Source: Lysobacterales bacterium
Lineage (GTDB): Bacteria > Pseudomonadota > Gammaproteobacteria > Xanthomonadales > Marinicellaceae
DNA: 64,000 nucleotides
Assembly: GCA_026982315.1 (NCBI GenBank)
Contig: JALSHI010000050.1
Location: forward strand, 62,001-126,000
Direction: 5' to 3'
The notes beneath the pieces are model-generated. The model did not search any database, was not told where the DNA came from, and worked only from the letters and a program-made list of their open reading frames with translations. This document shows, piece by piece, positions 60,446 through 64,000 of this stretch. The stretch's first letter is position 1. Every line of letters begins with the position of its first letter. The position numbers were made by a program, and so were the translations under genes.

Positions 60446-60649
60446 CTAACGCTTTTTCTTGATCGGCGCCAGCAGCAGATAGGCAATCCATACGGGCCAG
60501 AATACCAAGGTTCCGACCACCCAAGCCACCTTTTCGTTTTCCTCGGTGCGGCCAAAGCGGCTAATCAAGGCCGCTGGCAGTAACCAGATAAAAATCGTGA
60601 GCAGTATCGAAATGACTTCTCCCAGGGGCGAAAGTGATGACATCAACAT
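60446..60649 (-). CDS. Small two-helix membrane protein downstream of the RiPP genes
   Basis: The ATG at 60649 follows GGAGGT at a good distance and gives 67 residues, with hydrophobic segments at about 10-27 and 40-58 and a basic KKKR end. The pattern (W-V-V-G-T-L-V-F-W-P-V-W-I-A-Y-L-L-L) recalls PLDc_N-like phospholipase-D-nuclease N-terminal modules. It lies 39 bases after the B2 peptidase gene on the same strand. It could be co-transcribed; a role in self-protection or transport is only a guess. Confidence 0.65.
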   Translation of the reverse strand: MLMSSLSPLGEVISILLTIFIWLLPAALISRFGRTEENEKVAWVVGTLVFWPVWIAYLLLAPIKKKR

Positions 60650-60688
60650 ACCTGACCTCCAGTTGCGGTTAACAACCACTCAGTTTTC

Positions 60689-61078
60689 TCAGTCCCAATG
60701 GCCGCCAATATCATTGCGCTCCACCCAGGCATGCGCCCACAGCTTTTGGCCGTGACGATGCGCCGGATTGACGCCAATCACATGGCGGACAGCAACACCA
60801 CGGGCCCGCAAATTCTGAAACACAGCGACAGATTGCGGCAAACAACGGCAGTGCCGTAGCCCCCGGGCCGCCAGCTGGTAAAGCAATTCGACATGTTCAG
60901 GATCCACTGGCAACGGTTTTTCATGGGGGAAATTCAACACTCGCCGTATATCATAACAGGCCAGTTGCCGCCGCACCCGCTTAAGATGCTGACGCGCCTG
61001 CCATAAGGCCAGCGGCCGGCTTGCGGCAAAACACAGTTTCTGCCAGCGCCGGGATGTCCGGTGCTTACTAAAGCGCAT
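60689..61078 (-). CDS. Lasso-peptide B2-type leader peptidase (transglutaminase-like)
   Basis: The ATG at 61078 overlaps the kinase gene end by 11 bases, the usual coupling; a start at 61114 is less likely. The 129-residue protein has the B2 signature: catalytic Cys79 in HCRCLPQSVAVFQNLRARGV and His116 in WAHAWVE. Most B2 proteins continue for about 15-25 residues past AHAWVE. Here the frame stops nine residues later (RNDIGGHWD), leaving Asp123 or Asp129 as the possible third catalytic residue. By family it removes the leader of a RiPP precursor, normally with an RRE (B1) protein, which is not seen here. Confidence 0.88.
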   Translation of the reverse strand: MRFSKHRTSRRWQKLCFAASRPLALWQARQHLKRVRRQLACYDIRRVLNFPHEKPLPVDPEHVELLYQLAARGLRHCRCLPQSVAVFQNLRARGVAVRHVIGVNPAHRHGQKLWAHAWVERNDIGGHWD

Positions 61079-62078
61079 GACTGGCCTCCTGCACATAACG
61101 CCGGACAAGATCACAGGCGATGGCCAGATTTTCCGGCCGATGGGGATAATGCAGCGTCATACCCGGCAGGCTGGCTGCACGCTGACAGGCTTGCTGATGC
61201 TGCCGGAGCCAATAGGGATTCAACAACCGGGTGGCCACACCATGACGCGCCAGATTCAGCATCACAACAGCCGGCTTCAGCGGTTCTATCGCCACTGATT
61301 GCGTCGCATCGGCAGCCAGAGGATGAATAAAAAACCAGCGGATGTTCTGCCTGACTGCTGTCTGTGGGAACCGCCGCTGCCATGCTGGTGGCCACTTCCA
61401 CTGGGGGAACTCCGGGATCAGGGACACCGCCTTGTCCGCTCTCGCAACCATCGGCACGATATCATCAGCCAAGCCCCGCACATCGTCCTGAGCCGCCAGG
61501 GCGGCCGCCAGCGTGGATTTGCCCGCGCCTGAGGGCGCCAGAAACACACACACCACACCATCCACAAGCACCGCTGAGGCGTGCAGCAAAAAAATTCCGC
61601 GCATGGCCAGGGATACCGCCAGTGCTGGACCCAGCAGCAAACATTCGTCAGGCGGGCGGCCTTGCGCTGGCACACCCGGCAGGCTGAAACGTGCCGCCGT
61701 CACGCCACGGGCATCAACAACGAAAGTATGATGGTCTCCGCCATTTTCTGGTTGATTCCGCCGAGCTTGCATCATGCAGATCTCATCATCCGGCCACCAG
61801 GCCCGTAAGTCATAGCTGGCCGCCCCCAGCGTAATATGGCCGGAAAACCGGTAATTTGATAGCGCTTCGGTATGCAAGCGAATCGCAAAAGACGCCTGTG
61901 GTGATTGCAACAGGGACAAGTCAATAGGGGACGATAAACCGGATTGCCCTGATTCCGAGCTGTTTGCAGAAGGCACCGCGAAAGGCGCCAGCGCCGCCAC
62001 AGGATAAGCGCTCCGCACCGGTATACCGGCCACCCGGTAAGTCACTTTGGTTTCACTGACGCGTAATCGCTGGCTCAT
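61068..62078 (-). CDS. HPr kinase-like protein of the RiPP cluster
   Basis: The 336-residue protein has an N-terminal half without a known motif and a C-terminal HPrK-type kinase domain: His166 in LLHASAVLVDG, Walker A APSGAGKST (181-189) and Asp205/206 in GLADDIVP. HPrK-like kinases in lasso clusters (e.g. paeninodin) phosphorylate the C-terminal hydroxyl residue of the peptide. It is not the sugar-transport regulator HprK: no PTS genes are near. No SD precedes the ATG, and an in-frame stop lies just upstream, so the start is secure but probably weak. It sits 121 bases after the precursor gene, behind a terminator. Confidence 0.85.
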   Translation of the reverse strand: MSQRLRVSETKVTYRVAGIPVRSAYPVAALAPFAVPSANSSESGQSGLSSPIDLSLLQSPQASFAIRLHTEALSNYRFSGHITLGAASYDLRAWWPDDEICMMQARRNQPENGGDHHTFVVDARGVTAARFSLPGVPAQGRPPDECLLLGPALAVSLAMRGIFLLHASAVLVDGVVCVFLAPSGAGKSTLAAALAAQDDVRGLADDIVPMVARADKAVSLIPEFPQWKWPPAWQRRFPQTAVRQNIRWFFIHPLAADATQSVAIEPLKPAVVMLNLARHGVATRLLNPYWLRQHQQACQRAASLPGMTLHYPHRPENLAIACDLVRRYVQEASHAL

Positions 62079-62107
62079 AAACCGGGGCTAATATCCACAA
62101 GCAGAAA

Positions 62108-62131
62108 GCAAAAATCCCGGCAAGGCCGGGA
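62108..62131 (-). terminator. Intrinsic terminator between the precursor and kinase genes
   Basis: Minus strand: TCCCGGC-CTT-GCCGGGA, a perfect 7-bp stem with 3-base loop (62131-62115), followed by five Ts. It would let the precursor be made in excess over its enzymes through partial read-through. Confidence 0.8.
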
Positions 62132-62199
62132 CAACGTCGAACATACGGCCGTGACTGACGGCCATTCATAATGCGGCGGCTACTGCCAGCCAACCGGCA

Positions 62200-62382
62200 T
62201 CAGGTGCCAAACGGTTTTTCCAGTGCGCCATTGCCACTGTCGCCCACACCCGGCGAACCGCCCATGGTCACGTCACGCACATCACCACAAGGTTGCAGGC
62301 TTGGGGGAACATAGGGCTTTTTATGAGCATCACTCGAAACCGCCGCGTGGACCTGGCGCGTCGTTTTATCACGGTTTTTCAT
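62200..62382 (-). CDS. Lasso-family RiPP precursor peptide
   Basis: The ATG at 62382 has GGGAG seven bases upstream and gives 60 residues; an ATG at 62406 would sit almost on the predicted transcription start. The leader has Tyr24, Pro27, Leu29, Gly33 and Thr39, the exact Y-x2-P-x-L-x3-G-x5-T pattern recognised by lasso B1 proteins, with Thr at the penultimate leader position. The core would then be GGSPGVGDSGNGALEKPFGT, with Gly1 and Asp8 able to form an 8-residue macrolactam ring. The last residue is Thr, a plausible target for the neighbouring kinase. No cyclase gene is nearby. Confidence 0.85.
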   Translation of the reverse strand: MKNRDKTTRQVHAAVSSDAHKKPYVPPSLQPCGDVRDVTMGGSPGVGDSGNGALEKPFGT

Positions 62383-62414
62383 ACGGCTCTCCCGGCTCTC
62401 CTCCATGGGATTCT

Positions 62415-62442
62415 ATTATGCCAAGGCGAGAGCAAAAGTAAA
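62415..62442 (-). promoter_or_regulatory. Candidate promoter of the precursor gene
   Basis: TTTACT (62442-62437) and CATAAT (62420-62415) are 16 bases apart on the minus strand. The predicted start near 62408 supports the ATG at 62382. Confidence 0.55.
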
Positions 62443-62506
62443 CCACTATGACTCAGGCAGTTGTCACAGGCTGTTACAGACACACCACTGAGCGATAACG
62501 AACTCG

Positions 62507-64000
62507 TTACTCAAAGGATGAACGATAAATGATGTTGTCCGTACGCGTCACCGTTGCCACACCACGGCCACCGGTAAAGCCCAGGCCAATAATTTCCTTG
62601 GTGGTCGATCCGGCCTTGTCGGCCACAGGATCGCCCGGCCCACTGTCGGGGTAATCCTCGGTTTCTGCTTCGTGAATATCCACCACACCCCCGCTGAACT
62701 GGCCGGTGGCTGCATCATAAACCGCGTACTCCACTTCGATTTGCGAACCCGTTTGCAGCATGGCGAAAAAGTCCGCCGCACTGATGGGTTGATCGTCCAG
62801 CATGAAGGTACTGGCGCTGGTGTCGACCATGACGCCCTGAATGGATAATAACGGCGGATTGATGCTGGTTACCGGACCACGCAATTCGGCATTCTGCGGA
62901 TCCGGGCTGCCCCGGTCGCGCACCCGCAGGGCAAACAGCTGGCCGGACTCGTCCACAAACCCCCGTACTTCTACTTGCCGATCCTGGTTCAGGCCATTGG
63001 CCAAAATGCCTTCGTCATCACGGGTTTGCGGCGTGGACTGAAAGGTCAGACCAAACAAGGTGATGCTCTCTCCAGGCTGAATGTCTGCGGGGCTCACGAC
63101 ACCCTTGGCCTTCAGGCGAATATCCAGAAAGCGGATTTTGCTGGCTGATAGCAGGCCGTTGTCACTGTCCAGAATGCCTTGCACTTCCACCTTGGTGCCC
63201 ACATCCAGGTGCTCCAGCTCGCCATTGTCAATATCCGTGTTGTTGTCAATCAGCACTGTCACACCATTGATAACAAATGAGGAAAAATCAATCACCGATG
63301 CGATAATACCTTCTATCAAGGCCGGAACTTCCCCGGCAGGGTCCTGGTCAATATCCGGAGCCTGGCAGCTCATCGTGCTGGCTGTTTGCCAAATGCCTCC
63401 AGCGCTATAGGCCGCATCGGCTGTCCCTTCGATTTCGACAAAGTCGCCCACCACGGGCATACTGCCTGCACAACCAGTCACTGTCACCGACGCACTGCCA
63501 ATCAATAAACTGCCAACCTGCACCGTGCCCACGGGTGTGCCCACGGCTTGCACATAACCACGGACTTTCCATTCCAGCAAGGGTTGGGCAGGTTTTTCCA
63601 GGCGCGAAGCTTGCATAGACCCATCCGCGGCGATGACACCACTGATGGTGACTTCTTCCCCAATTTGCAGGGAAGACACGTCATTGACGCCCACCAGCAC
63701 TGTGTCGCCTGTCACCAACACCGGCTGATCCATCACCCGCAGCGGACTGGTGGCCGTCACAATGCCTTTATAGTCAATAATCAGATGCAATTCGGTCAGC
63801 GTGCCATGGCTGAGGCTGGCATTGACATCATTACCGACCCGGAAACGCCCCTTGTAACCCAGGCCAATAATTTCCTGGAGCTGCGGCGGGGTGATGACCG
63901 CGTCATCCACGGTAATCAAGGTGGCGCTATCCACATCCAGCCCGCGGATATCGTTAAACACCACCTGCGCCGGAGCTTCTGGCGCAAGCCCCAGAACGCA
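62507..64000 (-). CDS. Exported DUF5666-repeat protein, 5' end outside the window
   Basis: The frame is open through the right edge, so the N-terminus is missing (a GTG at 63964 is internal). The visible part of about 497 residues holds four to five DUF5666-like beta units, each with a G-x-V-x-S/A-V ... V-x-V-x-G pattern, e.g. KGVVSPADIQPGESITLFGLTF, IEGIIASVIDFSSFVINGV, RGPVTSINPPLLSIQGV. EIIGLGYKG near the start and EIIGLGFTG near the end repeat each other. The C-terminus is DNIIYRSSFE, like that of the small secreted protein at 53.4 kb. It is probably a secreted or surface protein. It lies 125 bases before the RiPP precursor on the same strand, with no clear terminator between. Confidence 0.8.
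   Translation of the reverse strand, partial: CVLGLAPEAPAQVVFNDIRGLDVDSATLITVDDAVITPPQLQEIIGLGYKGRFRVGNDVNASLSHGTLTELHLIIDYKGIVTATSPLRVMDQPVLVTGDTVLVGVNDVSSLQIGEEVTISGVIAADGSMQASRLEKPAQPLLEWKVRGYVQAVGTPVGTVQVGSLLIGSASVTVTGCAGSMPVVGDFVEIEGTADAAYSAGGIWQTASTMSCQAPDIDQDPAGEVPALIEGIIASVIDFSSFVINGVTVLIDNNTDIDNGELEHLDVGTKVEVQGILDSDNGLLSASKIRFLDIRLKAKGVVSPADIQPGESITLFGLTFQSTPQTRDDEGILANGLNQDRQVEVRGFVDESGQLFALRVRDRGSPDPQNAELRGPVTSINPPLLSIQGVMVDTSASTFMLDDQPISAADFFAMLQTGSQIEVEYAVYDAATGQFSGGVVDIHEAETEDYPDSGPGDPVADKAGSTTKEIIGLGFTGGRGVATVTRTDNIIYRSSFE

Follow-up and report, generated by a model that had tools for sequence, protein, structure and literature searches.

We conclude, with a probability of about 85%, that the lasso peptide genes near the end of this window belong to a dispersed, co-inherited lasso pathway that acts in trans, with its genes spread over three chromosomal loci. 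The window (the whole 64,000-nucleotide stretch that was analysed) corresponds to C50:62001-126000 of a 2.24-Mb genome in 70 contigs (G000). An earlier note on this DNA described a lasso leader motif, an HPrK-like kinase and a B2 peptidase lying together, and all three genes were confirmed. They form a minus-strand unit that runs from the precursor gene (A) through the kinase gene (K) to the leader peptidase gene (B2), which overlaps the stop of K (Table 1). The note also held that no cyclase (C) and no B1 gene is encoded nearby, and indeed we found neither in the last 12 kb of the window or in the next 25 kb of the contig. It suggested that the missing enzymes might be encoded elsewhere and act in trans. 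This proposal is now well supported, as one B1 and one C were found at separate loci, co-occur, evolve in step and are adjacent in the presumed ancestral cluster.

Table 1. Features of the A-K-B2 locus (positions in the window)
Feature	Positions	Strand	Basis or remark
Precursor gene A, 60 aa	62200..62382	minus	ORF and lasso leader model match; leader/core boundary predicted
HPr-kinase-like kinase K, 336 aa	61068..62078	minus	predicted fold; H166, K187, D205, D206
B2 leader peptidase, transglutaminase-like	60689..61078	minus	NF033537 and Transglut_core3
Sigma-70-like promoter of A (TTTACT, 16 nt, TGG-CATAAT)	62415..62442	minus	sequence; seen also in both congeneric genomes
Terminator-like hairpin and T run between A and K	62114..62132	minus	present in G001 and G002 too
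Element GTAACAGCCTGTGACA upstream of the A promoter	62462..62477	minus	generalised form is GTAACANNCYGTSACA

The open reading frame of A spans 62200-62406, with YVPPSLQPCGDVRDVTMG included; its probable start is the ATG at 62382, preceded by GGAGGAG. The predicted leader is MKNRDKTTRQVHAAVSSDAHKKPYVPPSLQPCGDVRDVTM and the predicted core is GGSPGVGDSGNGALEKPFGT, with a predicted ring from Gly1 to Asp8. In the whole genome, A is the sole match to the NCBIfam lasso leader model NF033521, scoring just under its cut-off (17.3 versus 19 bits). By sequence, it carries the leader motif YxxPxLxxxG and a Thr at position -2 (YVPPSLQPCG...DVTM, followed by the G of the core), and the core has the small first residue (Gly1) and the Asp or Glu at positions 7-9 (Asp8) by which lasso rings are recognised. 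A had no match on plasmids.

The core is the same in three species of the genus while the leader differs: a 29-residue segment (CGDVRDVTM plus the core) is protein-identical in all three, and the N-terminal part of the leader has diverged. Within the core segment, G000 and G002 differ at 12 synonymous and 0 non-synonymous positions, so that A, whose decay the earlier note had named as a point to check, is not decaying. Because the same A-K-B2 trio recurs in relatives and this segment is protein-identical in three species, the grouping of A, K and B2 is more than chance. We compared 15 related precursors. Gly1, Gly5, Gly7, Ser9 and Gly10 never vary, position 3 holds either Ser or Thr, and position 8 is Asp or Glu in 15 out of 15, swapping between both. 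An invariant Gly1 with Asp or Glu at position 8 is the pattern required by a Gly1-Asp/Glu8 ring. The related cores have T, I, M, A, L or F as their last residue, and the acceptor C-terminal Ser is absent.

Sequence models barely detect K (25.4 bits against TIGR04352, cut-off 200). Its predicted structure (mean pLDDT 78) matches the HprK/P fold with a Foldseek E-value of 3e-5, and its His-Lys-Asp-Asp residues, reported as essential in lasso kinases (PMC9266682), are invariant among 8 kinases. The B2 reading frame covers 60689-61114, with a probable ATG at 61078, and scores above the cut-offs of both NF033537 (38.4 bits, cut-off 33) and Pfam Transglut_core3 (34.3 bits, cut-off 26). Cys91 and His128, numbered in the 141-aa longer frame from 61114, are its catalytic candidates; a third residue is not evident. 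B2 terminates early in this genome, leaving a short C-terminus, and a Foldseek search with its model gave no useful match. B2-like matches on C61, C6 and C5 were set aside as longer proteins, or as a weak match with stops.

No exporter gene was found in the window either. The earlier note, which had seen no ABC exporter in the flanking sequence, can be refined on this point: just beyond the window an ABC transporter (PF00664 and PF00005, membrane and ATPase domains fused) lies on the same strand about 7-8.6 kb upstream of A (L005:19333 to L006:1037; G000 C50:131333-133036). It is syntenic in G002 and is only a candidate exporter in this genus; neither a dedicated exporter nor an isopeptidase was recognised. 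The gene directly upstream of A encodes a secreted DUF5666-repeat protein (62507-64000; PF18914, 134.7 bits) that the genus retains at 65-67% identity; in the sister genus it does not accompany A. Downstream of B2 lies a small hydrophobic protein with no family assigned (60446-60679, minus strand).

We searched the genome for PF00733 and PF05402 proteins, as the earlier note had proposed, and found exactly one lasso-type cyclase and exactly one lasso-type B1. The B1 gene lies on C26 (27.5 kb). Its product scores 66 bits against PF05402, 65 against NF033530 (cut-off 70) and 34.4 against TIGR04353 (cut-off 35), and the nearest solved structures are TfuB1 (1.3e-16) and TbiB1 (1.5e-14). It is the fourth and last gene of an operon that starts with an ECF sigma gene, followed by a DUF3619-like gene and a DUF3106 gene (G000 C26:27.5-29.6 kb; L015:7491-9558), and an ECF-type promoter (GTmAACC-N15-CGTTA) before the sigma gene is conserved in both genera. 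The C gene runs off contig C53 and continues on C57, with an overlap of 334 bp at 94% identity. C scores about 80 bits against PF00733; its best NCBIfam model is the lasso cyclase, but at 60 bits against a cut-off of 525. The NCBIfam models for C and B1 are of narrow 'exception' types, and the clustered outgroup homologues also score short of them. We found no second lasso-leader precursor in the genome and no leader-like frame at the loci read around B1 and C, where the earlier note had considered an unrelated precursor of their own.

Other matches were set aside. Among those to asparagine synthetase, reading the sequences identified a QueC-like gene beside a QueE-like radical SAM gene (C37), a MnmA-like gene (C25) and a GuaA-like gene (C61). 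A weak PqqD match on C14 has an outer-membrane-assembly lipoprotein-like context, and the PqqD match on C32 is HvfC, over its own NCBIfam cut-off. This HvfC-type RiPP maturation protein (266 bits; L008, G000 C32:0.9-1.7 kb) lies behind a DUF692-like gene and marks a further RiPP locus of this genome, one of bufferin type.

The dispersed arrangement extends across the group. We searched 33 genomes of the family for C, K and B1. These are draft assemblies, and the records that could be named (MAGs of Lysobacterales, Alcanivoracaceae and Gammaproteobacteria) all come from uncultured bacteria. C is present in 14 of them (three in the genus of G000 and eleven in the sister genus), K in 13 and B1 in 12, and 11 genomes have all three. 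The remaining 19 lack C, K and B1, and their asparagine-synthase matches are all generic, reaching 68 bits at most. K and C co-occur strongly (Fisher p = 2e-8, a value inflated by shared ancestry). Across nine genomes, C, K and B1 give congruent trees (r 0.94-0.97, Mantel p 0.0002). In 36 out of 36 pairwise combinations the genes lie on different contigs. B1 was not detectable in G001 (87% complete) or G011, and K is missing in G023. The sigma-DUF3106 operon of G011 has no B1 behind it. Six genomes of a further sister genus, g3, in which none of the lasso genes occurs, have a DUF3106 gene and lack B1.

Each locus has its own surroundings. In the sister genus A-K-B2 follows pepN immediately; in the genus of G000 it is found some 10 kb downstream of pepN, with extra genes between. 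B1 follows the ECF sigma/DUF3106 genes in both genera. In all three species of the genus of G000, C occurs by itself, with the dinG side on one flank and a 657-aa gene on the other; in the sister genus it comes immediately after rodA-mltB-rlpA. For instance, C directly follows rlpA at L086-L089 (G005, G015, G007 and G009), and in G015 and G007 the sequence was read back through mltB to rodA, a cell-elongation gene group.

Outside the family, thirteen genomes have C next to K, and the loci that were checked (L080, L081, L060 and others) show C-A-K-B2-B1 in this order over about 4 kb. The simplest history is the break-up of an ancestral C-A-K-B2-B1 cluster, in which the end genes C and B1 were lost to other sites and A-K-B2 was left. 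G035, a two-contig genome of another family, has C-A-K together (C1:5.781-5.783 Mb, L096) with neither B1 nor B2 nearby, and a B1-like gene 3.8 Mb away (C1:2.011 Mb, L097), possibly a second, independent dispersal.

A and C also share a sequence element. The generalised form GTAACANNCYGTSACA occurs without mismatch at exactly two sites per genome in the three congeneric genomes, one upstream of A and one upstream of the unlinked C. A search with the 16-mer from A alone, allowing up to 3 mismatches, gave a single site within the 20 kb surrounding C, and this is the site upstream of C; of 200 shuffles, 16 had any match over 20 kb. The element was first noticed by eye and counted afterwards, and thus gives support rather than proof that the parts still work together. 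In this genus A and C probably answer to the same regulator. In G000 and G002 a weaker copy also precedes the ECF-B1 operon; it is only suggestive, because the element matches 36-45 times per genome when two mismatches are allowed. The intrinsic-terminator-like hairpin between A and K is a putative attenuator, as is often found between lasso A genes and their enzymes.

By analogy with known lasso enzymes (PMC8498205, PMC9266682), the pathway would draw on A, K and B2 from the window, on B1 from the ECF operon on C26, which would place B1 under the control of that operon, and on C, alone on C53/C57. B1 would bind the leader at YxxPxLxxxG and hand the precursor to B2, which would cut after Met(-1) and before Gly1, with Thr at -2. 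C would adenylate Asp8 and couple it to the amine of Gly1, which would produce a ring of 8 residues and a tail of 12 that is presumably threaded. K would act on the precursor while it is still linear. Since these cores lack the C-terminal Ser used by known lasso kinases, the phosphate would most likely be placed on Ser9 or Ser3 here, and on Ser9 or Ser/Thr3 in the related precursors. All steps would act in trans, and the dispersed arrangement would have been inherited vertically after the break-up of the cluster.

The earlier note had also proposed a different, minimal RiPP, with phosphorylation and proteolysis as the only tailoring steps. A would then only be phosphorylated by K and cut by B2, and the distant B1 and C would serve something else. 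Such a system would fit the fact that A, K and B2 alone are adjacent and that C and B1 fall under the NCBIfam lasso cut-offs. However, the unlinked C, K and B1 are present or absent together in the family and have the same tree shape, and other families encode the same type of precursor within C-A-K-B2-B1. Core position 8 is always the Asp or Glu that a ring needs, and the genome offers no other leader-bearing precursor as a substrate for C and B1. The proposal is thus not supported, and we regard it as quite improbable.

We give similarly little credence to the idea that the locus is a decaying remnant of a broken cluster whose peptide is no longer made. The dispersal of the genes, the short C-terminus of B2 and the loss of one gene in some genomes might be read in this way, but the core segment has accumulated synonymous differences only. 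Moreover, the frames of K, B2, B1 and C are open across both genera, except that the C matches of G017 and G021 each contain a single in-frame stop, and the promoter, the attenuator and the A/C element are conserved. It is also conceivable that the genes are truly clustered and were parted by contig breaks or binning, as the assemblies are drafts and C of G000 is itself split at a contig end. The dispersal is read from separate contigs and from differing conserved neighbours in draft assemblies rather than from a closed chromosome. Nevertheless, no contig end lies within 26 kb of A-K-B2 in G000, where B1 sits on a 72-kb contig at a distance of 27 kb from one end; the distance to contig ends in G015 is 22 kb for K and 34 kb for C. 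The neighbours are conserved, and differ between the loci, in 11 genomes. An assembly artefact is therefore extremely improbable.

A dispersed lasso pathway matters for several reasons. Genome-mining tools find lasso peptides via clusters, so a pathway with unlinked B1 and C is easily missed or misread as cyclase-free. The arrangement offers a natural experiment on the need of lasso enzymes for co-localised expression, and K must modify a residue different from the known C-terminal Ser. The selection-frozen core, the position of B1 in an ECF sigma operon and that of C beside cell-wall genes hint at an endogenous role. One speculative extension, which we consider rather unlikely, is that the lasso peptide now serves the normal physiology of the cell instead of being a weapon of competition. 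Its core would be frozen by selection, the cyclase would be expressed with rodA-mltB-rlpA in one genus and with the regulator of A in another, B1 would be gated by the ECF sigma factor, the kinase would mark a ring-proximal Ser, and maturation would be switched by envelope stress or growth state.

The dispersed arrangement, which an entire group of uncultured gammaproteobacteria retains, is apparently undescribed: in the open-access literature on dispersed lasso genes we found only distant tailoring enzymes. In lasso pathways the A, B and C genes usually sit together in a single cluster, which is not required for function and is not the case here. The closest known systems are the kinase-bearing proteobacterial lasso clusters, such as SyanA/SyanK of Sphingobium yanoikuyae (PMC8498205, PMC9266682), which have the lasso leader, the HprK-like kinase with His-Lys-Asp-Asp, B1, B2 and C in common with our genome. 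Here, in contrast, neither B1 nor C is linked to A-K-B2 or to the other, and the precursor lacks the C-terminal Ser, the sole site reported for such kinases. In paeninodin (PadeA/PadeK) and pseudomycoidin, an HPr-kinase homologue also tailors the lasso precursor, as is predicted here, but these clusters come from Firmicutes, hold all their genes in one place and have a C-terminal Ser; we saw no nucleotidyltransferase here. The citrulassin pathway (PMC12971885) likewise relies on a gene outside the cluster, but that gene encodes only a tailoring enzyme (PAD), whereas here the essential B1 and C are distant. Unclustered lanthipeptide proteases (PMC8960859) show that RiPP maturation can be finished in trans by enzymes encoded elsewhere; they belong to another RiPP class, and there it is the protease that is distant, here the ring-forming enzyme and the leader-recognition protein. 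Finally, the NCBIfam 'HPr-rel-A system' (TIGR04352 kinase, TIGR04353 PqqD) also combines an HprK-related kinase with a PqqD-like protein, but K and B1 score below both of its models and the PqqD-like gene is not adjacent to the kinase. A second kinase and PqqD pair was seen in G036 (C104, L073), besides a complete lasso cluster on C131.
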